This document shows, one piece after another, positions 2,658 to 15,097 of a stretch of DNA of 24,314 bases. The position numbers and the translations under genes were made by a program. The stretch is from a virus: positions 1 through 24,314 of the IMG/VR virus record IMGVR_UViG_3300009149_000273. One strand, given 5' to 3'. How positions within the stretch are numbered: the first letter of the stretch is position 1; the number at the start of each line of letters is the position of its first letter. The notes beneath the pieces are model-generated. The model did not search any database, was not told the DNA's origin, and was given only the letters and a program-made list of their open reading frames with translations.

Positions 2658-2692
2658 TTGTCGCATCGACCCGAGTCGAGTAAGGTGTTGAC
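2658..2692 (+). promoter_or_regulatory. Rightward promoter-operator, copy A
   Basis: TTGTCG (2658-2663), a 17-base spacer with TCGACCCGAGTCGAG, TAAGGT (2681-2686), GTTGAC, then ATG at 2693. The -10 to ATG distance would place the mRNA start at the A of ATG. AGGTG, five bases before the ATG, could also act as a ribosome site if the transcript starts further upstream. It shares an upstream block AAATAGTTTCGGGCC with copy D at 22260. Confidence 0.72.
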
Positions 2693-2863
2693 ATGACCAA
2701 CGAGACAAACTCCCAATCCGACCCATCGAACGAAGAAGAATCCTGCGATTGCCAAATCGGCTGGCGGCGCGGTTTGTCCGGCATTGGCTGTCTCTCGGTC
2801 TGTGATCAGTTCGTCCGTGAGTTCCCCTTCGCCGAAGATTGGCTCGACTGGTCGCGTCGCTGA
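2693..2863 (+). CDS. Small protein behind operator copy A
   Basis: A 56-residue ORF starting exactly at the ATG of the promoter-operator. It begins MTNETNSQSDPSNEEESCDC, with four Cys in total, and ends in an acidic, aromatic segment (FAEDWLDWSRR). The first nine codons resemble, at DNA level, those of the ORF behind copy B (11660), so the duplicated cassette seems to extend into the coding region. No family is recognised. The stop codon at 2861-2863 is the first part of a strand that can pair with the structured RNA downstream, so translation of this ORF could influence its folding. It may be a functional protein or a leader ORF. Confidence 0.5.
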   Translation: MTNETNSQSDPSNEEESCDCQIGWRRGLSGIGCLSVCDQFVREFPFAEDWLDWSRR

Positions 2864-2962
2864 TCCGCCCGCCTCGCTTGCTGATCCCGAAGCGGCCTCG
2901 GCCACGGCCGAGCGTTGCGAAGGTCTTCCCGACTCGGGCGGATCTTCGGAGCGATCCCCGCT
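2862..2962 (+). ncRNA. Structured RNA element, copy 1 (leader of the DUF932-like gene)
   Basis: Folding by eye: hairpin CTCGGCC/GGCCGAG (2897-2912); CGTT (2913-2916) with AGCG (2950-2953); an internal GC/GG mismatch; GAAGGTC (2919-2925) with GATCTTC (2941-2947); and CCCG (2928-2931) with CGGG (2935-2938). AGCG can instead pair with CGCT at 2959-2962. GATCCGCCCG (2862-2871) is perfectly complementary to CGGGCGGATC (2935-2944) and so competes with the main helix. The same conserved blocks and helices recur at 13708 and 14955 with compensating base changes. It ends 25 bases before the downstream ATG. Candidate cis-regulatory RNA; ligand or protein partner unknown. Confidence 0.68.
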
Positions 2963-2987
2963 TCAACCAACCAGAAGGAATGGCACC

Positions 2988-4187
2988 ATGCCCACCACCG
3001 AAGAACTCTCCACCCGGCTCCGCAACGAGACCGACCTTTCCAAGATCAGCGGCACGCTTGCCGCCGTCGCCTCTTCCCGCTTCGATGTCGTTGCGCCGCA
3101 ATCAGCGATGAACGTCAACGACGGAATCATCACCATTACTGACCCCAACGGCGAACCCCAACTCACCGACGAAGGCGTCACGTCCCCGGTCATCGAAGCG
3201 ACCTACTCACGGATGGCCGAACGCCAAATCGCCGGTCGCCTCCGCATCCCCGTCCAGTACCTCGACCGGCTCAACGCTGCCGACGTTGGATCAGCACTCC
3301 CCGAACTGGCCGACCATTCCATCAACACCCTCGCCACCGCCGACAACCGCAAAGCGCTGTACCGCTTCCTGCGAGCCGACGACGGGCTGCTGCTTCGCTC
3401 GATCCTGTCCGACAGCTACGGGCTGTTCGACAACGATCGTGCGCTCCACGCTCTCATCGAAGGACTCGGCGCTTTCGGCCTCGGCCTCGGCGACTGCCAA
3501 GTCAAGGGCGACGTGACCCCAGACCAGCTCCGCCTTCGCATCACGGTCCCGGCGATCGAGCTGGCCGTCCCCGATCTGCTCGGCGACTACCGGATGCCGT
3601 TCTCGATGAAGCCGGAGAACGGAATGCACGACCGACCCGACGCTGGCGAGACACCTCCGGTGCTGTGGGCCGGTATCGAGATCGGCAACTCAGAGACTGG
3701 CAACGGCACCTTCTTCGTCCGCCCTCGGGCCGAGGTCGCGATCTGTCGGAACGGTCTGGTCAAGCCGATCGAGTTCAAGCGTGCCCACCTCGGCGCTCGA
3801 CTCTCCGACGGCGAAATCAACTGGTCCGGCGAGACTCGCCAGAACGTGTACAAGCTGGTCGCCTCGCAAGTCGCCGACGTGGTCCGAACCTACCTTTCGA
3901 CCGACTACCTGGAAACGATCGCGACCGAGATGCGTGCTGCGAAAGGTGTCGAGATCCGATCGGCGGCATCGGCCATTGAAGTGGTGACTGACCAGATCGG
4001 CTTGACCGACGACGAGCAGAGAAACGTCTTTGACTGTTTCGCTCGTGGCGGCGACTCGACTCTCCTGGGATTGGGGCAAGCCGTTACCGCTGCTGCCCAG
4101 CTTGTCGAGGACGGCGACCGTCAGTCCGAGTTGGAGGGGGAGTTCTGGAACGTGTTGAACTCGCCAGCCCGTTACGCCACAGTCTGA
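2988..4187 (+). CDS. DUF932-like phage protein
   Basis: A 399-residue protein. The start at 2988 is chosen because AGAAGGA precedes it and a structured RNA occupies the region before. The block AERQIAGRLRIPVQYLDRLN followed by YRFLRADDGLLLRSILSDSY and GLFDNDRALHALIEGL resembles the DUF932 family of phage and plasmid proteins, where 'aiLSdrYrrlDN' is typical. That family is widespread in mobile elements and has no established biochemical role. The middle region (AGIEIGNSETGNGTFFVRPR and following) is beta-rich. Position between recombination and replication genes suggests an early function. A strong hairpin follows the stop codon. Confidence 0.66.
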   Translation: MPTTEELSTRLRNETDLSKISGTLAAVASSRFDVVAPQSAMNVNDGIITITDPNGEPQLTDEGVTSPVIEATYSRMAERQIAGRLRIPVQYLDRLNAADVGSALPELADHSINTLATADNRKALYRFLRADDGLLLRSILSDSYGLFDNDRALHALIEGLGAFGLGLGDCQVKGDVTPDQLRLRITVPAIELAVPDLLGDYRMPFSMKPENGMHDRPDAGETPPVLWAGIEIGNSETGNGTFFVRPRAEVAICRNGLVKPIEFKRAHLGARLSDGEINWSGETRQNVYKLVASQVADVVRTYLSTDYLETIATEMRAAKGVEIRSAASAIEVVTDQIGLTDDEQRNVFDCFARGGDSTLLGLGQAVTAAAQLVEDGDRQSELEGEFWNVLNSPARYATV

Positions 4188-4198
4188 CTTGAAAATAC

Positions 4199-4249
4199 AC
4201 CCGGCCCAGAAGCTCGCACTTTGAACGGTGCGTTGCTTCTGGGCCGGGT
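4199..4249. terminator. Long perfect hairpin after the DUF932-like gene
   Basis: ACCCGGCCCAGAAGC (4199-4213) pairs perfectly over 15 bases with 4235-4249; inside, CGCAC (4215-4219) pairs with GTGCG (4228-4232). There is no U-run on the plus strand, whereas on the minus strand the stem is followed by GTATTTTC, a better terminator end. It may end DUF932 transcription, stop antisense transcripts, or be an RNA processing site. Confidence 0.5.
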
Positions 4250-4288
4250 AAGGTCATCGTCCCTACCAAGAACGAACCAGGAGAACAA

Positions 4289-4327
4289 GTGTACCAAGAA
4301 TTGACAGAAGCAGGAGTCGTGGCTTGA
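4289..4327 (+). other. Possible 12-codon leader ORF coupled to the replication gene
   Basis: GTG at 4289, preceded by AGGAGAACAA, opens a 12-codon frame whose TGA (4325-4327) overlaps the TTG start of the next gene. That junction is the translational coupling arrangement used throughout this window. It could also be a chance open frame. Confidence 0.28.
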
Positions 4328-5121
4328 GTATCGAGCGCGTCGCCCTAGTTCTCAAGAAGTCGTGGGGCGTGCCGGGAACCGCCAAGCTGATCTTGATCGG
4401 CATCGCCAACCATGACGGTGACGGTGGATCGTGGCCGTCGATTGACACTCTGGCGGCATACGCTGAGGTCGATCGGCGTGGAGTGCAGCGGCACCTCGCA
4501 ACAATGTCCGAGAAGGGCATCCTGATTGTCCACACCAACCGGGGCGGCACTGATGCCACTCCGGTTGATCGCCGCCCGAATCGCTACGAGATCGAGTACG
4601 GGTACGAGGCGGTTCCAGCGTCGCCCCGCGGGGCGGTGTCTACGACGCAACGGGGCGGTGTAGAAGGCGCGAACGGGGCGGTGTCTACGACCGAACGGGG
4701 CGGTGTGTGCGCCGCCCGAACCGTCCTTGAACCATCCATAGAACCGTCCGTAGAACTATTCGTCTCATCGCAAGCGATCGAGGCGGTGCCGCTGATGGAG
4801 GTTCTGGCTTTTTCGCTCGATGACGAATTCGATCTGTTCTGGCAAACATATGGCAGAGTCGGCTCGAAGAAGAAGGCACGCGAGTGCTGGGAGCGGGCGA
4901 TCCGCAAGGCTGCACCCCAGGTGATCCAAGCTGGCTTGGAGCGATGGACCGAATACTGGATGTTGCCCGACGCCGCCAATCAGAAATGGCCGCAAGGCTG
5001 GCTGAGCGAAGAGCGCTGGAACGACGAGCCACCTTTCGCCTCGGCCAAGTCCTCCGCACCGAAACTTACAAACTCCACTGCCGCTCTCAAGCAGGCCATG
5101 TTGAACAGGATGAATCAATGA
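4324..5121 (+). CDS. Helix-turn-helix replication initiator-like protein
   Basis: A 265-residue protein with a TTG start preceded by GCAGGAG at suitable spacing. Residues 37-68 (SWPSIDTLAAYAEVDRRGVQ and following) form a winged-helix of the kind found at the N-terminus of lambda O and Rep-like initiators. A low-complexity linker (about 98-140) follows, containing AVSTTQRGGV and AVSTTERGGV. The C-terminal domain begins FDLFWQTYGRVGSKKKARE and ends WPQGWLSEERWNDEPP, resembling the phage replisome-organiser/DnaT-like C-terminal region. Known role: binds origin iterons and helps load the helicase. The linker DNA carries four regularly spaced repeats, just as lambda ori lies inside the O gene. Confident of the initiator class, less of details. 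Confidence 0.72.
   Translation: MSIERVALVLKKSWGVPGTAKLILIGIANHDGDGGSWPSIDTLAAYAEVDRRGVQRHLATMSEKGILIVHTNRGGTDATPVDRRPNRYEIEYGYEAVPASPRGAVSTTQRGGVEGANGAVSTTERGGVCAARTVLEPSIEPSVELFVSSQAIEAVPLMEVLAFSLDDEFDLFWQTYGRVGSKKKARECWERAIRKAAPQVIQAGLERWTEYWMLPDAANQKWPQGWLSEERWNDEPPFASAKSSAPKLTNSTAALKQAMLNRMNQ
4629..4706 (+). repeat. Four iterons inside the replication gene (candidate origin)
   Basis: CGGGGCGGTGT occurs at 4629, 4651, 4674 and 4696, at spacings of 22, 23 and 22 bases, about two DNA turns. Copies alternate between two codon phases, so the conservation is of DNA rather than of peptide. An AT-richer stretch with the near-repeat GAACCATCCATA and GAACCGTCCGTA follows at about 4729-4753. Confidence 0.65.
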
Positions 5122-5552
5122 CCGAAGAAGAATCGTGGATGCTCATTAGCACCCTGGCAGTCGAAACAAGCGGCTGGGACGACAAGAACATCGAGGCCAC
5201 CCGGCAACGGATTGAAGGTTGGACCGACTACGAATGCGGTCGTCAGGCGGTCGAGACTGTCATTGAAACGCACGACGGCTACGGTCGCCCTCTCTGGGGC
5301 AATCTGAACAACGCTTACCGCTCGGAGGCCCGACGGCGGGCGATGTCCCTTCCAGCACTACCTTCGGGCGCTGAGGGACGCATCCTGCCGTTTGCAGAGG
5401 GTCGCGCCGTAGCGGCGAGATCGTATTCGCAGGCGTGTGCGTTGCGAGATCCGAAGACCGATCCGCACATCTTGTCTGGCTTCCGATCGAACGAGCCGAA
5501 TACGAAGATTCTCGATGAGCTTCTTGGATTCGTGGAGGGCGCAAGCGTATGA
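5118..5552 (+). CDS. Replication-region protein, possible helicase-loader-like
   Basis: A 144-residue protein joined to the initiator by an ATGA overlap. The N-terminal 70 residues are helical (EESWMLISTLAVETSGWDD, then IEGWTDYECGRQAVETVIE), followed by GRPLWGNLNNAYRSEARRR. This pattern of a short helical unit, 'A..AV', then 'P..L...YR', resembles the G39P-type loader/inhibitor proteins encoded beside initiators in many phages. The C-terminal half is unlike anything I recognise. The assignment rests mostly on position after the initiator and is tentative. Confidence 0.4.
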   Translation: MTEEESWMLISTLAVETSGWDDKNIEATRQRIEGWTDYECGRQAVETVIETHDGYGRPLWGNLNNAYRSEARRRAMSLPALPSGAEGRILPFAEGRAVAARSYSQACALRDPKTDPHILSGFRSNEPNTKILDELLGFVEGASV

Positions 5553-5815
5553 GCGTGACACCACGGGAGCGGGCGCTCAACCGAGGCCACGTCATGGACG
5601 CCGACGTGAGAAAGGCAGAGCGCGCCGAGGCAAAAAGGAACGCTCCGAAACTGATGGCGCTGTCGGTCGGGCAAGAGGTGTTTTTTGAATCTGGGGAATG
5701 GGGAGCTGTTTGGGGCAGGGTGTTGCGTGTGCTCGACACAGACCGGGCTGAGATCAGGCTGACTGACGGCGGCCGTTTGATTGTCCCGAGGTCAATGCTG
5801 AGTGGAGGTTCTTGA
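5549..5815 (+). CDS. Hypothetical protein with small beta-barrel C-terminus
   Basis: An 88-residue protein, ATGA overlap with the gene before. Residues 1-35 are basic and helical (RKAERAEAKRNAPK). Residues 38-84 (LSVGQEVFFESGEWGAVWGR and following, ending RLIVPRSML) alternate hydrophobic and polar residues like an SH3/KOW-type small barrel. No family is assigned. Co-translation within the replication operon and a basic N-terminus would fit nucleic-acid binding, which is inference. Confidence 0.52.
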   Translation: MSVTPRERALNRGHVMDADVRKAERAEAKRNAPKLMALSVGQEVFFESGEWGAVWGRVLRVLDTDRAEIRLTDGGRLIVPRSMLSGGS

Positions 5816-5816
5816 C

Positions 5817-6185
5817 GTGATTCAATCCGGTCCGATCAAACGTAAGAAGTCGCTCAATCGGTCCAAGGCTGCAACGTCATCTGGCGTCGCTCAAAGGCCA
5901 TCTAAGCAACGATCCCGTCCGAAGAGGGCCGGTGTCGCTCCCGATACTGCTGAGGCTGTGAAGGAGCGAGACCAAGAGTGCCAGGCATGGCCGCTCGGGT
6001 TCGCTCTCGATGTTCGATGCTCGGGCCGAGGACACATTCATCATCGAGTTCTTCGTTCGCAGGGCGGAGGGCACGATGCCACCAATCTCCTGCTGATATG
6101 CGAGGCGCATCATGACCTCGCCCACAACTCAAGACGGGCCGACGCCGAGGCTGCGACCGTCATTATTAGAAAGACAAAAACATGA
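5817..6185 (+). CDS. HNH endonuclease
   Basis: A 122-residue protein. The GTG at 5817 is chosen because GGAGG lies 8 bases before it; an upstream in-frame GTG at 5802 has no such site. The first 45 residues are strongly basic (IKRKKSLNRSKAATSS and following). The HNH fold is clear: HIHHRVLRSQGG at 73-84 with the metal and general-base histidines (75-76), N90 in DATNLLLIC, and HHDLAHN at 98-104. Family knowledge: such enzymes nick or cut double-stranded DNA and serve in packaging, homing or repair. It lies far from the terminase, within the replication operon, so a replication or homing role is possible. A homing integration cannot be tested here. Confidence 0.8.
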   Translation: MIQSGPIKRKKSLNRSKAATSSGVAQRPSKQRSRPKRAGVAPDTAEAVKERDQECQAWPLGFALDVRCSGRGHIHHRVLRSQGGGHDATNLLLICEAHHDLAHNSRRADAEAATVIIRKTKT

Positions 6186-6754
6186 ACGATCATATTAGTT
6201 ACGATCACGCCGCCTACGGCCAGACACCGCTATGCGGGGCTGCAATGTGGGACGAGCTAGTCACCGAAAATCATGCCAGGGCAGACGACACGAACGTCTG
6301 TTGGGAGTGCGCCAGCATCTGCGGGTGGGAAGTCTCATGGATGATCCCGAACGACGGGCAACTCGACATCTTCGGACAAGAATTCAAGCCTGTCGCCCGA
6401 TCTGGAGATCCAGAGACAAGCTGGCAGGCGGCAAGGTCGGTTGACGAATTCAAGATGCGTGAACTCCACGCCAGGCAGATCGAGTTACTCAGCCTCCGAC
6501 CGGGAACGCACGAAGGTCTGATGAGCCGATACGCACAACGATGGGAAGATCCGATCTCGGCATCGGGTTTCAGAACCCGTATCAGTGAACTGCGTGACGC
6601 TGGACTGGTTCGGGACAGCGGGCTGCGGGCGCTTATATCGTCTGGCCGTCGAGCGATCGTGTGGGAGATTGGCAGGGAGGAGTCGCTGGACCGTCAGCCG
6701 GTCCCTTCGTTCAACTCGATTTGCCCGACGTGCCACGGATCGGGCACCCGATGA
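6182..6754 (+). CDS. Protein with zinc-like motifs around a winged-helix domain
   Basis: A 190-residue protein with ATGA overlap at its start. The N-terminus holds CGAAMWDEL and VCWECASICGW, a possible metal site. The centre begins SGDPETSWQAA and continues through THEGLMSRYAQRWEDPISAS to GFRTRISELRDAGLVRDSG and SGRRAIVWEI. This is the winged-helix 'sR..eLrd.GlV.dsG.R....GR.a.vW' form seen in many phage proteins, likely DNA-binding. The C-terminus CPTCHGSG is a second, DnaJ-like Cys pair. The combination suggests a DNA-binding regulator or replication accessory. No named family is claimed. Confidence 0.6.
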   Translation: MNDHISYDHAAYGQTPLCGAAMWDELVTENHARADDTNVCWECASICGWEVSWMIPNDGQLDIFGQEFKPVARSGDPETSWQAARSVDEFKMRELHARQIELLSLRPGTHEGLMSRYAQRWEDPISASGFRTRISELRDAGLVRDSGLRALISSGRRAIVWEIGREESLDRQPVPSFNSICPTCHGSGTR

Positions 6755-7143
6755 GCAATGATATTCGTCCGGTCATGTCTCAGGCTCAGATCGAACATAA
6801 GATCATGGACACTGCGGATGCGTTGGAGCTTCTCGTCGAAGAGTACGCAGAGATCGCCGAGGCGGCTGGCGTGTCCACGGCGAATCATCTGAAACAGCAG
6901 GCGCTTATGACGTTGGCCGTCATCGAGCATCCGCCGCGCGACGAGAACGGACTCGTATTGAAGCAGGATGCGAAGTCTCGCGACGCAAGAATCGAGCTGG
7001 CTTCGAACGACGAACGGAAGACTGCTGCGATTGCTGGCGCTCGCCGAGAGTTCCAGCGAGAAGCAATGTCGATGAAACGTGCCAGGCTTGACGCTCTCCG
7101 CACTCTCGCCGCAAACGTGCGATACCAGTTGAACAACGGATGA
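6751..7143 (+). CDS. Hypothetical helical protein
   Basis: A 130-residue protein starting at the ATGA junction with the preceding gene. Nearly all helix by composition: LELLVEEYAEIAEAAG at about 27-42, then a charged stretch RKTAAIAGARREFQREAMS near 90-108, suggestive of a coiled coil. The conserved-looking link DENGLVLKQDAKSRDARIEL sits between them. No family is recognised. Its place in the replication operon suggests an early function. Confidence 0.5.
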   Translation: MSNDIRPVMSQAQIEHKIMDTADALELLVEEYAEIAEAAGVSTANHLKQQALMTLAVIEHPPRDENGLVLKQDAKSRDARIELASNDERKTAAIAGARREFQREAMSMKRARLDALRTLAANVRYQLNNG

Positions 7144-7406
7144 GCACGACCGTAGTCGGCTATGATGTGGGCATGACCGACAACGAATCTAAGAAGCTGG
7201 CAGCTCTCCAGCTCTCCGTGTGCCGAGGCAACGTAGCGATGCTGGAACGTAATGCGTTCCTCAAGGAGTTGTACGAAAAGGGTGCGACTCAGCCCGAGCT
7301 GGCCGTAAGACTCAACGAAGTTTCACGCACAGTGGGCGACAAGGAGATCACGCCGGACGCCGTGTATCGAGCAATCAAGCGAATCAACGATCGGATCGAA
7401 GCATGA
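7140..7406 (+). CDS. Small HTH-like protein
   Basis: An 88-residue protein from the ATGA junction at 7140; an internal ATG at 7173 gives 77 residues and lies behind a good -10 (TATGAT at 7161-7166, six bases before the ATG). The C-terminal half, LKELYEKGATQPELAVRLNE then EITPDAVYRAIKRINDRI, has the helix-turn-helix pattern of a small DNA-binding domain. No family is named. It precedes the modification cassette directly and could be made both from operon mRNA and from its own leaderless transcript. The second route is inferred from spacing alone. Confidence 0.55.
   Translation: MSTTVVGYDVGMTDNESKKLAALQLSVCRGNVAMLERNAFLKELYEKGATQPELAVRLNEVSRTVGDKEITPDAVYRAIKRINDRIEA
7161..7172 (+). promoter_or_regulatory. 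Possible leaderless promoter before the internal start at 7173
   Basis: TATGAT followed by six bases (GTGGGC) and ATG, the same geometry as TAAGGT-6-ATG in the repeated operators. No clear -35. It lies inside the start of the upstream-initiated frame, so it would create a second transcript and protein start. Confidence 0.4.
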
Positions 7407-8032
7407 GTGGCTACACAATCAACCAAGAGTTCAACGAAGCAATCCCGCTCGCTGACCTGACCGAGCATCCCGACAACCCGAGGCGAGGCGACGACGTGGC
7501 GGTAGCCGAGTCGGTCCGCGCCAACGGCTTCTACGGTGCGTTGCTCGTTCACAAGGAGACAGGGCACGTCCTGGCTGGTAACACCCGTCTACGTGTCGCA
7601 CGAGATGCGGGCGAGACCTCGATCCCAGGCTTCTGGATCGACTGCGACGACAAGACCGCCAAGCGGATTCTTCTTGCGGACAACCGGGTGTCGGATCTCG
7701 CCTACTACGACGACCAACTTCTGCTCGACATCCTGCGGATGGTGGACGACGAGAACGGCAGCCTGGTCGGCACCGGGTATGACAGTTCTTCGATGGATCT
7801 TCTTTTGCAGGCGGCAGCAGCCGACGAAATTATGGGCGGCGTGCGGCAAGGCGCGACTCCAGAGGACCGTATTGGCGCTTACGCTGCCGCCGATATCCGG
7901 TCGTTGATCTTGCCATACGATCACGACGACTACGAAATTGTTGTGGACAGCCTGATTGCTCTTCGCTCGTCGATGAGCTTGGATACGAACGCCGAAGTGA
8001 TCTTGCGGCTGGTGACAGAAGCCACGGCCTGA
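7403..8032 (+). CDS. ParB/sulfiredoxin-like domain protein
   Basis: A 209-residue protein, ATGA overlap with the gene before. Residues 15-75 are a ParB N-terminal-type domain: IPLADLTEHPDNPRRGDD, AVAESVRANGFYGALLV, and the phosphate-binding box HVLAGNTRLRVARDAG (G59-N-T-R62). There is no ParB HTH or methyltransferase fusion; the remainder is acidic and helical. Family knowledge: stand-alone phage ParB-like proteins occur beside DNA methylation and base-modification genes, and some have nuclease or CTPase-like activity. It opens a run of overlapping genes that includes a TET/JBP-like enzyme, so a role in targeting or regulating DNA modification is a reasonable inference. Confidence 0.78.
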   Translation: MSGYTINQEFNEAIPLADLTEHPDNPRRGDDVAVAESVRANGFYGALLVHKETGHVLAGNTRLRVARDAGETSIPGFWIDCDDKTAKRILLADNRVSDLAYYDDQLLLDILRMVDDENGSLVGTGYDSSSMDLLLQAAAADEIMGGVRQGATPEDRIGAYAAADIRSLILPYDHDDYEIVVDSLIALRSSMSLDTNAEVILRLVTEATA

Positions 8033-9009
8033 TGGAGCTGGCGCAGACAGTCGTTCCGCGCATCGTTCGGAAGCGAACGTTGAGTCCGCTTGTTCGCTGC
8101 ACGTTCGCCGAGCTGGACCAAAGGCTGAAAAACGATTACAATTCGTGCGGCGCGATGGTCCCATACACGCCTTTGAAGCCGTGCGCTAGCTGCGGTCAGC
8201 GGCAGGTTCAAGCAATCGTTTCTTCTCCGCCACCGGGTGCCGAAATTATCGAAGGCAACGCTGCGCTAATTGACGAAGACACAGGAGAGGTTTCCGCTTT
8301 ACAAGTGATCGCTGTACCCGACCTGGCGAACCGTTTGTCTGTCGGCTTTGGTCGAATGAAATGGAATTCGGACAATCTCCATAAAACGAGTGGCGGTGAA
8401 TCGCGACTGTCGGGCATGGTCGTAACCCACCGGACCTTCGGGTACACTCCGCCCGTTCCGCTCCGTAGGCGGTGGGCCTGCGCTTCTTCGAGATTCGACA
8501 TTGAAGAACCAGAAATGTCATCGAAGATCTTGGAATACATCGTGGCCGCTGAGCATGTGTTCCGTACTCAAGCAGGCGACAAGTACGAGCAGACGGCAGC
8601 AGCGGTGCTAGAAAAGATTCCGGCTGCGTGGCGTATCGCTGGTAGCCCTTGGACATCGGGCATCATCAACAACACAGCGGCGCTCCCGTATCACCGAGAC
8701 TCGAACAACATCAAAGGCTCCTGGTCGGCGATGCTGGCGATCCGAAACAACGTCGATGGCGGTCTGCTGCATCTCGCCGACTATGACGTTTGGTTGCGTG
8801 TACCGAACGGCTCGATTTCGATCTTCGATGGACAGTCGGTACTCCACGGTGTCTCGCCGTTCAAGCTGTCTGGCCCGAACGCTTACCGGTACACGATCGT
8901 GTCGTATGCCCGCCGAGGCCTGCGGGTGTGTTGCCCAGATCCGAAGGGCGAGTCCAAGCGTGCTGCGATCGCAGCGACTGTCGCCGACGACAAAAGGCGC
9001 ATCAAGTGA
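8032..9009 (+). CDS. TET/JBP-like 2-oxoglutarate/Fe(II) dioxygenase
   Basis: A 325-residue protein, start sharing one base with the previous stop. The C-terminal half is a double-stranded beta-helix dioxygenase: LPYHRDSNN gives the HxD iron ligands H221 and D223, DGGLLHLADYDVWLRVPNG forms the middle strands, and VLHGVSPF gives the distal ligand H272. AYRYTIVSYARRG gives R286 for the 2-oxoglutarate carboxylate. The 'GG.L.L..Y.......G....FdG...HGV.P....AYRyT..Y' pattern fits the TET/JBP branch, which oxidises 5-methylcytosine or thymine in DNA. A CASCG motif near residue 51 may bind zinc. Neighbours (kinase, aGPT-like transferase, methyltransferase) suggest the hydroxymethyl product is built up further. 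The precise substrate base is unknown. Confidence 0.75.
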   Translation: MELAQTVVPRIVRKRTLSPLVRCTFAELDQRLKNDYNSCGAMVPYTPLKPCASCGQRQVQAIVSSPPPGAEIIEGNAALIDEDTGEVSALQVIAVPDLANRLSVGFGRMKWNSDNLHKTSGGESRLSGMVVTHRTFGYTPPVPLRRRWACASSRFDIEEPEMSSKILEYIVAAEHVFRTQAGDKYEQTAAAVLEKIPAAWRIAGSPWTSGIINNTAALPYHRDSNNIKGSWSAMLAIRNNVDGGLLHLADYDVWLRVPNGSISIFDGQSVLHGVSPFKLSGPNAYRYTIVSYARRGLRVCCPDPKGESKRAAIAATVADDKRRIK

Positions 9010-9989
9010 GTGACGCCGAGACCCACATGCATTTCCTGTCGGAGTTCACCCGGCTGGAACAAGCAGTCGGTGGGCCGGACCCGCACATGAGGATCGTCTG
9101 CGAGGGCTTGGTGCGTGACGTGGCTGACACGCCTGAGCACCGTGCTTGGCTGATCGGCTGCTACCTCGGCCCGTACAACGTCCCGTCCGGTGAGGTCGTT
9201 CTGCATTATTGGCCTGATCCGGCGATGGTCGTTGCCAACCCCGATGAATTCGCGTCATGGGTCGAAAGTGCATGGAAGCAGCTTTCGCTACGCCGTGAGC
9301 GTCGGGCGATCAGGACTCCGAGGAAGTTCACGGCCCACATGCTCGGCTACGCCGAATGGTGTTTGCGGGTCGCCCCAACGATTGGTTCGGCCCGTGACGC
9401 GGACGAGGTGTGGGACCGGCTGATGCTGATTGCCGGGAATGGCCGGTACGCCACGATCAAGTTGTACGAGGCGCTGCACAGGGTCGGCGTGATCGACTAC
9501 CCGTTCCCCGATATCCGGCCGAGCGGCGGCTGGTCACCGAGGGAAATGCTCGCCCGGTTGCACCCTGACACGGCGGCGCATCTGAACGCTGGGAACACGG
9601 CGGTCCTGTGCCAGATTGCGAATGACAAGGCGTCGATCTCCCGCCGTCACTTGTCGGAAAGGCTCGGCGCTCAGGTCGATTGGTACACGATGGAGGTCGT
9701 CTTGTGCGAGTACAAGCAGGCTTGGGACGGAGGCCAGTATCCAGGGCGCGCGCACGATTCGGAGCTGGGCCACGTCCGTAAGGTCACTCCGCTTTGGCCT
9801 GACGTGCCGTTCAAGACTCTCGATATTCGGCGTGAGTTGTTTCCCGAGATCGCCTTGGGGGAGGTGCGTGGCTGGGATGGCCGACGTGAAGGACTAGGTG
9901 GGTGTCCTTCAGCTCACGGGTATATGTGGTCTGACACGTTGTACGACTGGGATGCCACGATCGACCTCGCTGATCCGGTGCCGTGGTGA
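9006..9989 (+). CDS. aGPT-pyrophosphorylase-like (DNA base hypermodification) protein
   Basis: A 327-residue protein from a GTG at 9006 in a GTGA overlap. The helical core contains LIAGNGRYATIKLYEALHRV then IDYPFPDIRPSGGWSPR, resembling the 'GRW.A.K..DLLe.v....p.D' core of alpha-glutamyl/putrescinyl-thymine pyrophosphorylase-like proteins. In hypermodifying phages these displace a (pyro)phosphate from a phosphorylated hydroxymethyl base and attach an amino compound. An earlier segment, HRAWLIGCYLGPYNVPSGEV, also fits. The match is by eye, with no search to confirm it, but being between a TET/JBP-like enzyme and a P-loop kinase strengthens it. The nucleophile it would use cannot be told. Confidence 0.5.
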   Translation: MSDAETHMHFLSEFTRLEQAVGGPDPHMRIVCEGLVRDVADTPEHRAWLIGCYLGPYNVPSGEVVLHYWPDPAMVVANPDEFASWVESAWKQLSLRRERRAIRTPRKFTAHMLGYAEWCLRVAPTIGSARDADEVWDRLMLIAGNGRYATIKLYEALHRVGVIDYPFPDIRPSGGWSPREMLARLHPDTAAHLNAGNTAVLCQIANDKASISRRHLSERLGAQVDWYTMEVVLCEYKQAWDGGQYPGRAHDSELGHVRKVTPLWPDVPFKTLDIRRELFPEIALGEVRGWDGRREGLGGCPSAHGYMWSDTLYDWDATIDLADPVPW

Positions 9990-10639
9990 AGCAGTACAGC
10001 GATAAGCGCAACGGCTGGGCCGAGGGCATGTGGGTTCGGGAAGTCGGGCCTGACACTGATTGTGTGCGCGAGCAGCGGCGGGAGTACGGGTCGCTGGTTT
10101 GGCGCGGTCACCGTGTCCTCGACTTGGGGGCAAATATCGGGGCTTTCGCCTGGTTCGCTTTGATGCACGGGGCGGAGAGGGTGACGTGCGTGGAGCCTGA
10201 CCCTGGGAACATTCAGGTTCTCGACTTGAACCTTCAAGCGTTCTCCGCTTCGATGGTGCGGATCGCTGCTGCGGTGGCGAACGATCCCGGCCAGGTCGAG
10301 TTGTACCTGGCGAACAACGATCAGCATTGGTCGCATTCGACCGTCCCGACGAAAGGTCGTGAGCCTGTGTCGGTCCCGGCCGTAGCGATGGCTCCGCTGT
10401 TGCCTGGTCACACGGCAGTCAAGTGCGATATCGAGGGCGCTGAGTACGGCATCGACTGGTCGTTCCTTGCTGCGTCGGACGTGTCGATGGTGGCGATGGA
10501 GCTTCACTTGAATCGTGGGACGTGGCGGACGGAGGAATGCCCTCGCTTGTTTGAGGTGATGGCGGATGCTGGGTTCACGATCAATGACGAGTTCATCCCA
10601 GAGAAGCATTGGAACATTGTGCGGACATGGCAACGGTAA
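9986..10639 (+). CDS. FkbM-type SAM-dependent methyltransferase
   Basis: A 217-residue protein; GTG at 9986 overlaps the previous stop as GTGA (a GTG one codon earlier is possible). Motif I is VLDLGANIGAFAWFAL near residues 38-53, followed by VTCVEPDPGNIQVLDLNL with the acidic residue that holds the SAM ribose. TAVKCDIEGAEYGIDWSFL near 139-157 is the 'kiDiEGaE' signature of FkbM-like enzymes. Those usually methylate hydroxyl groups on small molecules or sugars. Co-translated with base-modification genes, it may cap the group added to the base, which is inference. Stop is TAA, and a gap of ten bases with AAGGAG follows before the next gene. Confidence 0.78.
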   Translation: MKQYSDKRNGWAEGMWVREVGPDTDCVREQRREYGSLVWRGHRVLDLGANIGAFAWFALMHGAERVTCVEPDPGNIQVLDLNLQAFSASMVRIAAAVANDPGQVELYLANNDQHWSHSTVPTKGREPVSVPAVAMAPLLPGHTAVKCDIEGAEYGIDWSFLAASDVSMVAMELHLNRGTWRTEECPRLFEVMADAGFTINDEFIPEKHWNIVRTWQR

Positions 10640-10649
10640 GGAGATCAAA

Positions 10650-11072
10650 ATGAAAATGTATTACTACGGACATTCGCTCTACACGCGGGGAAAGCCGTTG
10701 GCGTCCCATGTTGAGTGGCTGCGGCAGCATGACTTTATGGTTGTGTCGCTGTCGCCTGCGTACCCGCCGCACCTCGCTGAGCTAGGCGCAAACTCGATTC
10801 ATCAGTCAGTCCCTGATGGGCGGTTGAGTCCTGCGGTGTTGGCCGATTTCTTGCAGGCAAAGGAATGGATCGTGGAGCGCGCCTCTCAGAATCGTCCTGT
10901 TCTGACGCATTGCAACGCAGGCCGCAACCGGGCGGCTTTCCTCACAGGGCTTGCGTATGCGGATTTGGCAGGCGTATCAGGAGCCGAGGCGTTCTCTCAT
11001 GTCCGTCAGATCAGGCCGAACAGCTTGGCAAACGATGACTTCGCTGAGTATTTGATGTCGTACAAGCCGTGA
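10650..11072 (+). CDS. CX5R (dual-specificity/tyrosine-type) phosphatase-like protein
   Basis: A 140-residue protein with AAGGAG six bases upstream of ATG, the clearest ribosome site in this cassette. The catalytic loop is VLTHCNAGRNRAAFLTGL: H87, nucleophile C88, R94, the full HCx5R signature. VPDGRLS (D56) is placed to be the general acid. Length fits a minimal DSP-like fold. Such enzymes remove phosphate from proteins, nucleotides or RNA. Being between a methyltransferase and a kinase in a putative base-modification cassette, it may act on a phosphorylated nucleotide or DNA base rather than on protein. That is inference and would be an unusual pairing. Confidence 0.72.
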   Translation: MKMYYYGHSLYTRGKPLASHVEWLRQHDFMVVSLSPAYPPHLAELGANSIHQSVPDGRLSPAVLADFLQAKEWIVERASQNRPVLTHCNAGRNRAAFLTGLAYADLAGVSGAEAFSHVRQIRPNSLANDDFAEYLMSYKP

Positions 11073-11605
11073 AGTCGCAAGCGATCTACGTCCTGGGTGC
11101 GCCTGGGTCGGGAAAGTCGACGTTGGTGCGGTCGTTGATGTCGTCGCTCGGAATGGGCGAGGAAGCCACTCAGCATGACCGGCCTGTGCCTTACCTCGAT
11201 CATCACAACGGTTGGGTCGAGGTTGGTCGCCGCCGTGAGACTTTCTCGGGGACGGATGCGTTGGCGATGTCGATTATGCCGAAGGCAACTGAGTGGGTGC
11301 GGTCTGACGCTGCTCCTGAGCGGTTGATCGGCGAGGGTGCCCGGTTGGGTTCTGCGAAGTTTCTGCGGGTGGTGCGTGACGAGTACGACTCGTTGGTGGT
11401 GTTGCACTTGACGGGCGACCCGGTGCTGATGTATAGCCGGATGCTGGATCGTGCGGCTGCGTTGGGAACGAAGCCGCAGAATGAGGCGTGGTGGCGTGGC
11501 CGGTTGACGGCGGCGAGGAATGCGGCGGCGGCTTTGGGTGCGGTTTCGTTGGATGTCAGGGAGCCTCCTGATGCTGTGTTAGCTGCGGCTTTGCAAGCTT
11601 TCTAA
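11069..11605 (+). CDS. P-loop kinase, possibly a DNA hydroxymethyl-base kinase
   Basis: A 178-residue protein from GTG at 11069 in a GTGA overlap. Walker A is GAPGSGKST (10-18). RLIGEGARLGSAKFLRVV near 89-106 resembles the substrate-binding 'GEG.RlG' of nucleotide kinase-like proteins. SLVVLHLTGDP forms a beta strand, and the Arg-rich segment YSRMLDRAAALGTKP looks like a lid. Phage P-loop kinases of this size phosphorylate nucleotides or, in hypermodifying phages, hydroxymethylated bases in DNA. The neighbouring dioxygenase and aGPT-like protein favour the latter. Last gene of the cassette; promoter copy B follows 19 bases later. Codons here favour G/T endings more than the genes downstream do. 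Confidence 0.68.
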   Translation: MKSQAIYVLGAPGSGKSTLVRSLMSSLGMGEEATQHDRPVPYLDHHNGWVEVGRRRETFSGTDALAMSIMPKATEWVRSDAAPERLIGEGARLGSAKFLRVVRDEYDSLVVLHLTGDPVLMYSRMLDRAAALGTKPQNEAWWRGRLTAARNAAAALGAVSLDVREPPDAVLAAALQAF

Positions 11606-11624
11606 ATTGCTGTCGGGCCAGTAG

Positions 11625-11659
11625 TTGTCAACTCGACCCAAGTCGAGTAAGGTGTTGAC
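11625..11659 (+). promoter_or_regulatory. Promoter-operator, copy B
   Basis: TTGTCA (11625-11630), 17-base spacer ACTCGACCCAAGTCGAG, TAAGGT (11648-11653), GTTGAC, ATG at 11660. Over 57 bases (from 11607) it differs from copy C at a single position, indicating recent duplication or active homogenisation. Likely leaderless. Confidence 0.75.
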
Positions 11660-11833
11660 ATGACCTACCAGACAAACTCCAAATCAACCAGCCCGACAGT
11701 CGGAGCACCCGACCGCAACCCAGCGAAGCTAGTGCAATGGGTCGGACTGTGCTCGACCACTACCACGGCTACCCGAGCCGACCAGCTTCGTCTCGGCGAC
11801 ACCTTTCCCCTTCAGAACTGGCGGGGCGAATAG
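11660..11833 (+). CDS. Small protein behind operator copy B, ends at amber codon
   Basis: 57 codons from the operator ATG to TAG at 11831-11833. The sequence starts MTYQTNSKSTSP, like the ORF behind copy A, and ends RADQLRLGDTFPLQNWRGE. The same frame stays open after the TAG for 35 more codons and then ends with a TGA that overlaps the next ATG as ATGA, the usual junction in this genome. The peptide on either side of the TAG reads as one domain: GDTFPLQNWRGE, then KNTTVESLAFEGEDVLVND. So the annotated stop is probably a nonsense change, a readthrough site or a sequencing error in a 93-residue protein. No family is recognised. Confidence 0.5.
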   Translation: MTYQTNSKSTSPTVGAPDRNPAKLVQWVGLCSTTTTATRADQLRLGDTFPLQNWRGE

Positions 11834-11941
11834 AAGAATACGACAGTTGAGTCGCTCGCTTTCGAGGGCGAAGACGTTCTGGTGAACGACACCCTCTCGA
11901 CCAGCCCCAGCAACTGCTTCCAAGTTCTAAGCTCACGATGA
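11834..11941 (+). other. In-frame continuation after the amber codon
   Basis: Continuation of the preceding frame: 35 sense codons with normal composition, ending TGA at 11939-11941 overlapped by the next start. No ribosome site or start of its own is evident, apart from a GTG 19 codons before the end. It would be made only by readthrough or suppression of TAG. Confidence 0.42.
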
Positions 11942-12192
11942 TCTACCCCATCGACATGGCTGACGGCGAATGGCCGACCAGCAACTTCGACTACACGCTT
12001 GGCATCCCGCCGATCGGTGACACCGTGTCAGCCCACCCGGCACGATGCGAATGCAGCCCATGCTGGGACCGTGCCGAGTTCGCTGACTGGATTCGCAAGA
12101 TGGACAAGGATCGGCTAAGCGGCGACTACGGATCACTCTCCGACTGGCAGCGAGAGACAGCCCGAGATGACATCGCGAACGGGTTTGGCTGA
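11938..12192 (+). CDS. Hypothetical protein with Cys cluster
   Basis: 84 residues, start at an ATGA junction with the frame before. RCECSPCWDR (about 36-45) is a compact Cys cluster suited to metal binding. The C-terminal half is charged and helical (FADWIRKMDKDRLSGDYGSL, then DWQRETARDDIA). No family is recognised. First of three consecutive small Cys-containing proteins. Confidence 0.52.
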   Translation: MIYPIDMADGEWPTSNFDYTLGIPPIGDTVSAHPARCECSPCWDRAEFADWIRKMDKDRLSGDYGSLSDWQRETARDDIANGFG

Positions 12193-12193
12193 G

Positions 12194-12382
12194 ATGATTG
12201 CCAGATATGAGTTGACGACAAGCGAGTGTGTTTACTGCCATCGGCCGATCACGCTCGACAAGCGGTGGCCTGCACCGCACGGACGTTTGGGCATCTGGTA
12301 TCACGATGACCTTGTGGACGTGGACTGCTCGGGCGAGTCGTGTGATGTCGATGATGGCGAAGGCAACGAGGCTACGCCATGA
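12194..12382 (+). CDS. Small putative zinc-binding protein
   Basis: 62 residues from ATG at 12194, one base after the previous stop. CVYCHRPI near residue 12 followed by an H-containing strand (GRLGIWYHDDLVDVDCSGES) gives a CxxC...H...C layout of a treble-clef-like small zinc protein. Function unknown; many phages carry strings of such proteins in the accessory region. Confidence 0.55.
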   Translation: MIARYELTTSECVYCHRPITLDKRWPAPHGRLGIWYHDDLVDVDCSGESCDVDDGEGNEATP

Positions 12383-12720
12383 GCGGATTCCGCTACGCCA
12401 GCCCGATGGTCGGGCACATGAGCGACCGGGACTTCTGGCATTCCGGCGCTCGCTCGGTCTGCTCGAAGTGCGAGGACGACCTGACCAACACCACCCTCTC
12501 GGCTCATCCTGGCAAAACAGTTTGCCAGTTCTGTCGGCTCGACCTCGGCGACGCAATCGAAAAGCGAGTACACGCTTCCGTCGCTCACGGTCGAGGCGAG
12601 CAGCCGACCAGATTTTCAGCGTGCAACTCTGGTGCGTGCAACGAACGGGTGTTCATCGGTTCGAGGTGCTCAGCCTGCTCCACACTCAACTTGAAACAAT
12701 CCGAAAGGGAAACAAAATGA
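12379..12720 (+). CDS. Double zinc-ribbon-like hypothetical protein
   Basis: 113 residues with ATGA overlaps at both ends. Two paired Cys motifs, CSKC (near 28) and CQFC (near 49), form one likely zinc site. CNSGACNERVFIGSRCSAC near 82-100 forms a second. DFWHSGARSVCSKCEDDL shows the ribbon start. No recognised family. Likely a nucleic-acid or protein adaptor by composition only. Confidence 0.55.
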   Translation: MSGFRYASPMVGHMSDRDFWHSGARSVCSKCEDDLTNTTLSAHPGKTVCQFCRLDLGDAIEKRVHASVAHGRGEQPTRFSACNSGACNERVFIGSRCSACSTLNLKQSERETK

Positions 12721-13076
12721 GTTACATGACGGTGACCGAAGCAGCGGACCGCCTCGGCGTGTCTCGCCAGGCGGTACTGAAGGCCATCAACAGCGGCAGC
12801 TTGCCGTCGAGAGCCCAGGTGGAGCATGGCCGTGTTGTGCGTTACCTCGTGACCGCTGAAGGCGTGTCGGCGAGGATCGCTGCTCAGGCTCGACCGACCG
12901 GCTTCTTGTCTGTCAGGGAGGTCGCTGAGCGTTTGGGGGCTGGTAAGTCTTCTGTGGGTCGGTGGATTGCGTCTGGTCGCTTACCGGCAACGAAAGTTGG
13001 TGAATCGCACTTCATCGACCCGAGCGACATCGTTGCTGTCGGGCCGGTAGTTGTCAACTCGACCCAAGTCGAGTAA
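12717..13076 (+). CDS. Tandem excisionase/MerR-type HTH protein
   Basis: 119 residues. The ATG at 12717 overlaps the previous stop and has GAAAGGGA upstream. Two excisionase-like winged helices are visible: MTVTEAADRLGVSRQAVLKA with INSGSLPS (residues 4-32), and FLSVREVAERLGAGKSSVGR with WIASGRLPATKVGESHFI (about 63-99). Such proteins bind DNA as regulators or recombination directionality factors. The last 13 or so codons (AVGPVVVNSTQVE) are encoded by promoter-operator copy C itself, and the stop TAA is the TAA of its -10. The native C-terminus may therefore have been replaced when the element was inserted. It could be the regulator of the repeated operators, but that is untested. Confidence 0.75.
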   Translation: MSYMTVTEAADRLGVSRQAVLKAINSGSLPSRAQVEHGRVVRYLVTAEGVSARIAAQARPTGFLSVREVAERLGAGKSSVGRWIASGRLPATKVGESHFIDPSDIVAVGPVVVNSTQVE

Positions 13077-13085
13077 GGTGTTGAC
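13051..13085 (+). promoter_or_regulatory. Promoter-operator, copy C
   Basis: TTGTCA (13051-13056), spacer ACTCGACCCAAGTCGAG, TAAGGT (13074-13079), GTTGAC, ATG at 13086. Near-identical to copy B over 57 bases. It lies entirely inside or touching the end of the double-HTH gene. Drives the 62- and 130-residue genes and then structured RNA copy 2. Confidence 0.75.
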
Positions 13086-13274
13086 ATGAGCAACAAGACA
13101 CAGATCAAATCCAAGAAATCCCAAAACGTCCACGATCTCGGCAATGGGATGTTCCGAGTCGGTGAGGGCACCAGCTCGATTGTCCGCACGATCGACGCCG
13201 ACCAGCTCGCAGAGTGGGAAGCCAGCCCATACAACAACTGGCCCAACCACAAGCCGACTTCCCGGTCCCGCTGA
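13086..13274 (+). CDS. Small hypothetical protein behind operator copy C
   Basis: 62 residues beginning at the operator ATG (MSNKTQIKSKKSQNVHDLG). A basic first 13 residues are followed by a compact beta-rich segment (NGMFRVGEGTSSIVRTIDAD) and a short C-terminal helix and tail (LAEWEASPYNNWPNHKP). No family is recognised. The start is fixed by the promoter; the mRNA would have no leader. Confidence 0.6.
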   Translation: MSNKTQIKSKKSQNVHDLGNGMFRVGEGTSSIVRTIDADQLAEWEASPYNNWPNHKPTSRSR

Positions 13275-13302
13275 AATCCGAAACCAGAGAAAGCAGAAAC
13301 CA

Positions 13303-13695
13303 ATGACAAACCAGACAACCCTCCAGTCAGCCATCGCAACCGAGATCGCCACCGAGTGCCTGACGCGCTCCAACGATGAGAGCGTTCACTACGACAGCCT
13401 GAAGGACGTGTCGATCACCTCGGTCGAACAAGCCGCCGAGACAGCCGTAGCAATGGCCGAAGCAAAAGCCGTCGCTCAGCTGTACGGGAAGTTTGCTTCG
13501 ATCGCCAAATGGTTCATCGAATCCGAGATGACCGAAGATCAGATCCGCCTGGGAATGATGAGCGAACTTGTCGACCTCGCCACCGATGGTGCCGACGATC
13601 GCTGGAGCGGACGTGGCAACGATCTCGCCCGTTCCGCCAACGATGCCCGCCTCAGGCAGGTCCGCCGCATCCGGTCGATGATAAACGCTGGCTGA
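13303..13695 (+). CDS. Hypothetical helical protein preceding structured RNA copy 2
   Basis: 130 residues; start chosen at ATG 13303 behind the recurring leader GAGAAAGCAGAAACCA. Helical throughout: EQAAETAVAMAEAKAVAQLY near 46-65, then SIAKWFIESEMTEDQIRLGM. The C-terminus is basic (RLRQVRRIRSMINAG). Its TGA stop is the start of the strand TGATCCGCCCG that can pair with the RNA element downstream. No family is recognised. Confidence 0.55.
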   Translation: MTNQTTLQSAIATEIATECLTRSNDESVHYDSLKDVSITSVEQAAETAVAMAEAKAVAQLYGKFASIAKWFIESEMTEDQIRLGMMSELVDLATDGADDRWSGRGNDLARSANDARLRQVRRIRSMINAG

Positions 13696-13784
13696 TCCGC
13701 CCGTGGCCCTCGGCTCCCCGCCGAGGCGCTGCGATGATCTCCCGAGCCTCCCCCTGCTCGGTGGATTATCGGAGCGACCGCTCC
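13694..13784 (+). ncRNA. Structured RNA element, copy 2
   Basis: Hairpin CCTCGGC/GCCGAGG (13708-13726); CGCT (13727-13730) with AGCG (13773-13776); GC/GG mismatch; GATGATC (13733-13739) with GATTATC (13764-13770); and CCGAG (13742-13746) with CTCGG (13757-13761). AGC can instead pair with GCT at 13780-13782. GATCCGCC (13694-13701) can pair, with two G-U wobbles, with GGTGGATT (13760-13767), the same competition as in copy 1. It is followed by a ribosome-site leader and the gene at 13807. Confidence 0.68.
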
Positions 13785-13806
13785 ACCTACCAGAAAGAAG
13801 ATCACG

Positions 13807-14133
13807 ATGACCAACCAGATTCAATCCGAAATCCGACCCGGCAACTACGTCGGCCAATCGGCTCGATGCCTCGAACAGAACCAGGCATCGCACGGTCCCC
13901 TCCAAACAGAGGTGGCCCGATGGGAACGCAGTAATGGCGAACCGTACTTCTCCGGCCAGATGAGCATTTCCCCTCTTTACGCAAGGGCATGGACCACGCC
14001 GAGCGGCGAGTTCAACCATGCCTCGATCGACTGCCACAAGGTGACCGACGTTGACTTGAGCAACCCGACCAAGATCGTCGTCACCACCGCCACAGGCGAG
14101 ATCGTCATCAACCTGTTCGCTGAAGAAGCATGA
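13807..14133 (+). CDS. Hypothetical protein downstream of structured RNA copy 2
   Basis: 108 residues, ATG preceded by CAGAAAGAAGATCACG. The N-terminal part is polar (MTNQIQSEIRPGNYVGQSAR). The C-terminal half is beta-rich and ends KIVVTTATGEIVINLFAEEA. No family is recognised. If the RNA element is regulatory, this is its target, together with the overlapping genes downstream (14130-14942). Confidence 0.55.
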   Translation: MTNQIQSEIRPGNYVGQSARCLEQNQASHGPLQTEVARWERSNGEPYFSGQMSISPLYARAWTTPSGEFNHASIDCHKVTDVDLSNPTKIVVTTATGEIVINLFAEEA

Positions 14134-14441
14134 GCGATCCGGTGAAAGCCGAGAGGTACAACGGCTGGGTCAACCGAGAAACGTGGGCTGCCCACCTTTA
14201 CCTCAGCAACGACGAGTCGCTGTATTCGCAGTGCGTCGATCTGGTCGATGGGAAGTCCCCTTGGTTTGCTGGCGATGCGATCGAAAAGTTCTGCACTGAG
14301 AACGTCGAGATGGTCCTGTTCCCATACGAGCAAGAATGGAACCCAACCGCTCTGTGGCGGATGTTCATCTCCGAAGTGGGCAGCATGTGGCGAGTCGATT
14401 GGCAAGAAGTAGCACATTCGTTCCTGGAGGCATCAAAATGA
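14130..14441 (+). CDS. Phage protein of the 'NGWxNxETW' type (DUF7249-like)
   Basis: 103 residues, ATGA overlap at the start. The N-terminal box RYNGWVNRETWAAHLYLSND is typical of a widespread family of small phage and plasmid proteins (DUF7249-like) in which 'NGW.N.eTW...LWL.Ne' is the signature. Near the C-terminus, VGSMWRVDWQEVAHSFLEA matches the family's 'ei..vdW.eIa..l' ending. Biochemical role unknown. Often found in early accessory regions, as here. Confidence 0.66.
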   Translation: MSDPVKAERYNGWVNRETWAAHLYLSNDESLYSQCVDLVDGKSPWFAGDAIEKFCTENVEMVLFPYEQEWNPTALWRMFISEVGSMWRVDWQEVAHSFLEASK

Positions 14442-14734
14442 ATCAGACACAGCTACGTTTCACCGACGAACGGATGGCAGCCATCAAGTCCGTCGCTAGC
14501 CACGACTGGCAGCAAGCCATCGTCGATGCCTACAAGGGTTTCGGCATCTACCTGAACGATGATGACTGCCCGCCCGTTGACCCGAAGAAGTATGCGTTGC
14601 CTGCTGACCAGTGGAAGGAAATCGCTGCCGCGCTGGCCGACTCCCCGAACCAGTCACCGATCATGGCAGCCAACCGGATGCTGACATGGGTCAACATTGG
14701 CCCGTCATCGTTCGAGGGCGTGATGACGTCATGA
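14438..14734 (+). CDS. Hypothetical protein
   Basis: 98 residues from the ATGA junction; CTGGAGG precedes the start. Mixed helical composition (DERMAAIKSVASHDWQQAIV, then LPADQWKEIAAALADSPN). A Pro/Asp-rich loop in the middle is DDDCPPVDPKKY. No family is recognised; co-translated with the genes on either side. Confidence 0.52.
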   Translation: MNQTQLRFTDERMAAIKSVASHDWQQAIVDAYKGFGIYLNDDDCPPVDPKKYALPADQWKEIAAALADSPNQSPIMAANRMLTWVNIGPSSFEGVMTS

Positions 14735-14817
14735 ACGACGGACCGATCTGGGCGTTGAGCCTCGCCATCATCCTGCTCGCAATGTTGGCCTATGTGGCTT
14801 ACACCGAAAAGTCTTGA
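14731..14817 (+). CDS. 28-residue single-span membrane peptide
   Basis: ATG at 14731 overlaps the previous stop (ATGA). After a short polar start (MNDGPIW) residues 8-24 (ALSLAIILLAMLAYVAY) form one transmembrane helix, with TEKS at the end. It is too short for a family call, but the overlap and clean helix support a real gene. N-out/C-in orientation is suggested by the charges. Confidence 0.5.
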   Translation: MNDGPIWALSLAIILLAMLAYVAYTEKS

Positions 14818-14819
14818 CA

Positions 14820-14942
14820 GTGACGCTGACTCAATGCTCGCTGTGCGGTCGGTGGATCGCTGCGATGACTTTCCACCAACCCATCTGCCCGAACGACCGG
14901 CCTCAACCAATCGTGAGGCTCGATCCTCTGACATCCGATTAG
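14820..14942 (+). CDS. 40-residue Cys-containing protein
   Basis: GTG at 14820, two bases after the previous stop, reading MTLTQCSLCGRW and QPICPNDRP to TAG at 14940-14942. CxxC followed by another Cys is a plausible small zinc site. No clear ribosome binding site; coupling to the upstream gene is likely. It ends 12 bases before structured RNA copy 3, as other ORFs end just before copies 1 and 2. Confidence 0.42.
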   Translation: MTLTQCSLCGRWIAAMTFHQPICPNDRPQPIVRLDPLTSD

Positions 14943-14954
14943 ACACGAAGCGAC

Positions 14955-15074
14955 CTCGGGCGAAATGCCCGAGCGTTGCGATGAATCTCTCCAGTCGAGA
15001 ACAGTGATCGCGAGGTCTGTCCAGGATTGTCTTCCTGCATTGAGACTGGAGAGGTTCATCGGAGCGAAAACGCT
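14955..15074 (+). ncRNA. Structured RNA element, copy 3
   Basis: Hairpin CTCGGGC/GCCCGAG (14955-14973) with loop GAAAT; CGTT (14974-14977) with AGCG (15063-15066); GC/GG mismatch; GATGAATC (14980-14987) with GGTTCATC (15053-15060); and TCTCCAGTC (14988-14996) perfectly with GACTGGAGA (15044-15052), closing a 47-base variable insert. AGCG can also pair with CGCT (15071-15074) around AAAA. It shares GAGCGTTGCGA and ATCGGAGCGA with the other copies. It precedes a GTG-started membrane protein. Confidence 0.68.
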
Positions 15075-15097
15075 TCACGAACCAAAGGCAGAGCCGC

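Follow-up and report, generated by a model that had tools for sequence, protein, structure and literature searches.

A repeated intercistronic RNA element with two predicted alternative folds in a viral genome and its relatives

The extended start-associated sequences (ESAS) of cluster K mycobacteriophages consist of imperfect 17-bp inverted repeats whose spacer varies, mostly within 4-13 bp (PMC3203893), and adjoin the start-associated sequence (SAS) with the consensus GGGATAGGAGCCC (PMC12699233). This ESAS/SAS pair is the closest described arrangement (PMC3203893) to the element analyzed here, a structured RNA of roughly 75-130 nt that is present in three copies in the IMG/VR virus record IMGVR_UViG_3300009149_000273. 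The entire record of 24,314 bases is referred to below as the window. Like the element, ESAS occur in several copies per phage, have inverted repeats located just upstream of start-associated motifs, and are kept with particular genes (PMC3203893). Unlike ESAS, the element contains a GC-rich hairpin (P2) and a variable hairpin, is predicted to take two alternative folds and lacks the SAS consensus; neither 17-bp imperfect inverted repeats, nor the short spacer, nor GGGATAGGAGCCC is found in its anatomy.

Three other systems show more limited likeness. Translational coupling by RNA unfolding has been described for f1 gene VII/IX, MS2 coat/lysis and rpmI-rplT, and is proposed to be a general mechanism (reviewed in PMC12548453). 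In those cases, as might hold for the element, the upstream ribosome would alter an RNA structure governing the downstream start; however, each is a single case, its structure presumably blocking the ribosome-binding site of the downstream gene, whereas the element forms a repeated family and leaves this site unpaired. The RNase III processing sites in the early region of phage T7 are structured RNAs that lie between the stop codon of one cistron and the ribosome-binding site of the following cistron. These are alike in intercistronic operon position, a functional analogy only, with no demonstrated common sequence. The HK022 put RNA, of ~70 nt with two stem-loops (PMC9378689), is also a cis-acting phage RNA with adjacent stem-loops, and this too is a functional analogy only: put is located downstream of early promoters and before the genes, and binds RNA polymerase without start-codon spacing (PMC9378689), suppressing termination via the zinc-binding domain of the polymerase, whereas the copies of the element lie between cistrons.

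The element includes four short strands, a (GYGRC), b (CGYTGCGA), c (TCGGAGCGA) and d (CGCTYC). All three window copies have the order GC-rich hairpin, CGYTGCGA, variable helix, TCGGAGCGA and CGCT (Table 1). This order had been recognized in an earlier note on the same DNA, although the coordinates given there omitted the upstream strand a. A G.G mismatch and an A following GAGCG are fixed, whereas the stretch between b and c ranges from 25 to 79 nt, so that the length of the variable helix differs widely. Because the copies share short blocks only, the element was not listed by a general repeat finder. At least nine distinct element sequences were found across at least six IMG/VR records.

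Comparison of these sequences indicates that the element is very probably a functional cis-acting RNA. Relative to dinucleotide shuffles, the folding z values are -4.2, -6.2 and -6.9 for copies 1, 2 and 3, respectively, and none of 200 shuffles was as stable as the corresponding window copy. In a plus-strand scan of 808 segments of 100 nt, copies 2 and 3 rank first and third by z, and copy 1 is weaker (z -2.9). Among the nine distinct sequences, P2 and the variable helix extended by b:c pairing have 96% of cells paired, with 25 cells changed on both sides compared with 10.1 in shuffles; the alternative a:b pairing likewise has 96% of cells paired, with 28 changed on both sides compared with 11.5. 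Comparison of orthologues is the better test of covariation, because shuffles ignore relatedness. Between window copy 3 and its orthologue in record G003 (IMGVR_UViG_3300027848_000009), seven stem pairs are changed, four on both sides and three on one side to another allowed pair, with none broken. The compensating base changes proposed earlier are thus borne out, as is the absence of a known family: Rfam 15 gave no match at the position of any copy at E values up to 5, and its single match in the whole window at this threshold, at 9270, is under the gathering score of that family. No tRNA or tmRNA was found.

Several other origins were considered. A protein-coding repeat, which the earlier note had named as an outcome that would overturn its reading, is ruled out because orthologues differ by indels and compensatory changes. 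A DNA-level repeat or mobile element is unlikely, as the copies are always on the sense strand and the compensatory changes indicate a single-stranded structure. An intrinsic terminator was rejected: there is no U-tract, and the next gene begins within ~35 nt, leaving scant space for a new promoter.

A new finding of the present modeling is that the conserved blocks would share in two mutually exclusive folds. State I consists of three adjacent hairpins, in which strands a and b lengthen P2 by pairing, with one C bulged out, the variable hairpin stands alone, and c pairs with d where d is kept. In state II, a three-way junction forms: b:c pairing extends the variable hairpin across the G.G mismatch and a:d pairing closes the junction where possible. 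In constrained folding, the predicted minimum energies of the two states are only 0.2-4.2 kcal/mol apart in 9/9 distinct copies. State I is predicted to be preferred in seven of these, L013/G003 copy 1 is a near tie, and window copy 1 would prefer state II. U34, present in all nine, forms a G.U wobble in state I and a U-A pair in state II, which is expected if b must pair with both partners. Similarly, the change of U to C at position 33 goes with that of A10 to G, and the state II partner G80 tolerates both. As b and c barely vary, this signature of dual pairing is suggestive only. The fixed mismatch and the invariant A had been taken as a possible recognition core; both features are confirmed, but with two rival pairing schemes open to the conserved blocks, they may equally be a switching strand.

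The positions of the copies relative to genes are consistent. Those examined are sense to both flanking genes, and the interval from strand c to the downstream start codon is 29-35 nt in 9/9 by hand count. The upstream stop codon lies 0-7 nt before strand a in 8/9. The location between a stop codon and a ribosome-binding site, as originally reported, holds for all three window copies and for the relatives. Each copy has a cistron on either side, apparently within an operon, and is not the 5' leader that had been supposed. Nearby genes overlap (14130-14441 with 14438-14734, and the latter with 14731-14817). The gene downstream of copy 1 had been called DUF932-like, but its product has no match in Pfam (PF06067 included) or NCBIfam, and matches PHROG 1362 only. 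In record G002 (locus L007), the copy is located between terminase and portal genes, ahead of a different gene, and the module therefore serves more than one site.

Relatives were sought by pattern scans of viral contigs, in which matches had to have a neighboring hairpin as well as an inner stem; these gave further copies in at least five records beyond that of the window. Long-loop scans of viral contigs added copy-3 orthologues, among the matches listed, and two half-element scans returned the known copies and nothing further. A covariance model was built from the nine distinct sequences, with longer variable helices shortened for alignment. It finds three copies in the window, two in G001, one in G002, three in G003, one in G004 and two in G005. 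True copies score 62-86 bits, values that are descriptive and not proof because the model was built from the same sequences; weak reverse-strand matches are the palindromic stem read backwards. In 35 further records with related terminases, no copy was found, the top score being 14.7 bits, and one strict-pattern contig scan of bacterial genomes gave four matches scoring just 9.5-14.3 bits. Orthologues of copies 2 and 3 occur in other phages, and G001, which lacks the copy 1 gene, likewise lacks copy 1. The window DNA comes from an uncultivated phage, probably of actinobacteria, because it is chiefly phages of Mycobacterium, Gordonia and Arthrobacter that carry relatives of the gene downstream of copy 1 (~32-34% identity for the best). 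The leaders of these homologues contain no element, as judged by eye and folding, and among isolated phages the window record has neither a close relative nor a meaningful DNA match.

Other hairpins occur in comparable positions in related phages. The loci L440 and L441 carry 13-bp hairpins that are repeated, intercistronic and located after a stop codon, ahead of the same ACCAGAAAGC start-associated motif. In L440, the hairpin GAGCGCACCGG...CGGTGCGCTC occurs at 259-288 and 1184-1213, shortly after stop codons. Unlike the element, these are single GAGCGCACCG hairpins without b and c blocks, and score just 14.7 bits with the model.

The two predicted folds suggest, tentatively and at somewhat below even probability, that the element is an intercistronic phage RNA switch setting downstream-gene expression post-transcriptionally, the ribosome as sensor being the least certain step. 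Such a switch would probably tune downstream translation or processing by sensing the ribosome that ends the upstream gene. During transcription, a would pair with b first, forming state I. A ribosome halted at the upstream stop codon (0-7 nt off in 8/9) would cover a, releasing b to pair with c and leaving d unpaired; a 30S subunit might then meet an unstructured stretch ahead of the ribosome-binding site, and downstream translation would follow upstream translation. This scheme is modeled on the RNA-unfolding form of translational coupling (PMC12548453). Alternatively, a protein or a nuclease might set or read the state. The fullest version, in which a phage-specific switch family senses the ribosome leaving the upstream gene, swaps the hairpins for the three-way junction and couples translation of unrelated neighboring genes, is rather doubtful. 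The element belongs to no Rfam family and recurs ahead of unrelated genes, and repeated structured intercistronic RNAs in phages have rarely been described beyond a few model phages. As a small module with two folds predicted in each copy, it makes intercistronic switches in phage operons directly testable, and the covariance model can now be used to find further members.

Several observations weigh against this switch. The ribosome-binding site is unpaired in both predicted folds, and any effect on initiation would thus be indirect. The b:c helix is nearly invariant, varying at one pair and on one side, whereas the a:b pairing shows A-U/G-C/G-U changes among copies; covariation therefore backs the a:b helix and both stems but does not extend to b:c itself. 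The b:c and a:d pairings may be a by-product of the alike stems of the first and third hairpins, and predicted energies are subject to errors of several kcal/mol. One lineage has no strand d: it is lost in copy 3 of G001, G003 and G005 (two distinct sequences), where c is unchanged, which conversely favors the switch by indicating that c is not kept solely for c:d pairing. In window copy 1, the stop codon is 28 nt before a; a second in-frame TGA at 2882-2884, 7 nt ahead of a, suggests that the upstream gene recently gained an earlier stop. In a close relative, G006 (locus L298), the copy 2 gene is present (84% identity) but the element is absent, and this gene can therefore do without it. The sample is also small, with nine distinct sequences from ~4 lineages.

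Two other explanations are each improbable. The element might be a site of mRNA processing or stability, at which RNase III-type cleavage or a stabilizer hairpin would part the upstream message from the downstream one, as happens in the early mRNA of T7. The repeated, sense, intercistronic copies directly between stop codon and ribosome-binding site would suit this role, as would the similarly placed hairpins of L440. The variable helix with b:c might suit it too, being ~17-22 bp with mismatches in state II and shorter in state I, where cleavage takes a double-stranded stem of about two turns. However, helix length is very variable, and RNase III does not need invariant b and c or a fixed G.G mismatch; to our knowledge, its recognition involves neither invariant blocks nor alternative pairing. 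The element could instead be bound by a phage or host protein that jointly represses or activates the downstream genes, as a translational operator or through terminator/attenuator readout. The short blocks with the mismatch and the invariant following A are the most conserved parts while the surrounding stems drift, and several targets are present in one phage, in line with such binding. Against it, no regulator candidate emerged, dual pairing accounts for the conservation equally well, and the element lacks the U-tract of an intrinsic terminator.

The remaining candidates are less probable still. A translation insulator, namely a passive structure keeping ribosomes from running into the next gene, is quite unlikely: the element fills the cistron gap while neighboring window genes overlap, and structure right behind a stop codon goes with reduced coupling (PMC12548453), but a plain hairpin would be sufficient, with no need for conserved b and c blocks. 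Slightly less credible is a factor-independent antitermination element resembling put, with two stem-loops binding RNA polymerase. The phage does repeat a group of at least two neighboring stem-loops that are similar in size; however, put occurs once per operon below early promoters and is not tied to start codons, whereas copy 3 follows copy 2 by 1.2 kb on the same strand and start-codon spacing is tight, and an Rfam match is lacking. A ligand-binding riboswitch has an equally slight chance. The invariant nucleotides of the three-way junction and the existence of a second fold would fit it, but the element is intercistronic and not a leader, the downstream genes have no common metabolic theme, the invariant bases are mostly paired and no Rfam riboswitch matched.

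Table 1. Copies of the RNA element in the window, with their parts, flanking cistrons and ribosome-binding sites.
Feature	Position	Strand	Description
RNA element copy 1	2889..2964	+	covariance model 85.8 bits
Copy 1 parts			a within GAAGCGGC 2889-2896; P2 2897-2912; b CGTTGCGA 2913-2920; variable helix 2921-2945; c TCGGAGCGA 2946-2954; d CCGCTTC 2958-2964
Copy 1 upstream cistron	2693..2863	+	56 aa, no family match
Copy 1 downstream cistron	2988..4187	+	399 aa, PHROG 1362 (unknown function)
Copy 1 downstream-gene ribosome-binding site	2973..2979	+	AGAAGGA; outside both predicted folds
RNA element copy 2	13703..13786	+	covariance model 80.0 bits
Copy 2 parts			a GTGGC 13703-13707; P2 13708-13726; b CGCTGCGA 13727-13734; variable helix 13735-13768; c TCGGAGCGA 13769-13777; d CGCTCC 13779-13784 (CCAC to 13786)
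Copy 2 upstream cistron	13303..13695	+	130 aa, unknown; stop 7 nt before a
Copy 2 downstream cistron	13807..14133	+	108 aa, unknown
Copy 2 downstream-gene ribosome-binding site	13792..13800	+	AGAAAGAAG
RNA element copy 3	14947..15076	+	covariance model 65.2 bits
Copy 3 parts			a within GAAGCGAC 14947-14954; P2 14955-14973; b CGTTGCGA 14974-14981; long variable helix 14982-15058; c TCGGAGCGA 15059-15067; d CGCTTC 15071-15076
Copy 3 upstream cistron	14820..14942	+	40 aa, small Cys-containing protein; stop 7 nt before a
Copy 3 downstream cistron	15098..15304	+	68 aa, hydrophobic N-terminus, probably membrane; GTG start
Copy 3 downstream-gene likely ribosome-binding site	15084..15091	+	AAAGGCAG

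The window also contains a start-associated motif like ACCAACCAGAAAGMAGAAACCAATGA at 2967-2990, 13288-13305, 13787-13809, 22558-22583, 22830-22853 and 23116-23141. The RNA element accompanies only some of these sites, and similar motifs are present in L440. In the G006 phage, a start motif of its own, GATAGAAAGGTATTTATGAGCAACC, is repeated (L298 3040-3118 and 3740-3822), and upstream of its copy 2 gene orthologue a AAATAAATAAA stretch could pair with GATAGAAAGGTATTTATGAGCAACC, covering the start region. A distinct repeat of 79 nt occurs in four copies in the window (2640-2718, 11607-11685, 13033-13111 and 22260-22338) and includes the palindrome TCGACCCRAGTCGA, TAAGGTGTTGACATGA and a near-leaderless start codon; it looks like a repeated early promoter/operator.

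In the G003 record, GC content is 0.61 at 20-40 kb compared with 0.51-0.53 in the 60-72 and 100-112 kb pieces of the 60-156 kb region, and the record may join more than one phage. The PHROG 1362 gene of the window is followed by a strong 15-bp hairpin at 4200-4250 (z -6.4 for its scan segment), and at the corresponding position the G003 orthologue (L424, ~14128-14168) carries a hairpin whose sequence differs. A possible leader peptide of 12 codons (a GTG start, then YQELTEAGVVA) lies at 4290-4328, its stop overlapping the start of the replication initiation gene, and L424 contains a similar one. The region 8032-11605 encodes a Tet/JBP-like 2OG oxygenase, an FkbM-type methyltransferase, a dual-specificity phosphatase fold and a P-loop nucleotide kinase (PF18751), with a ParB-like protein just ahead, and is possibly a DNA base-modification island.

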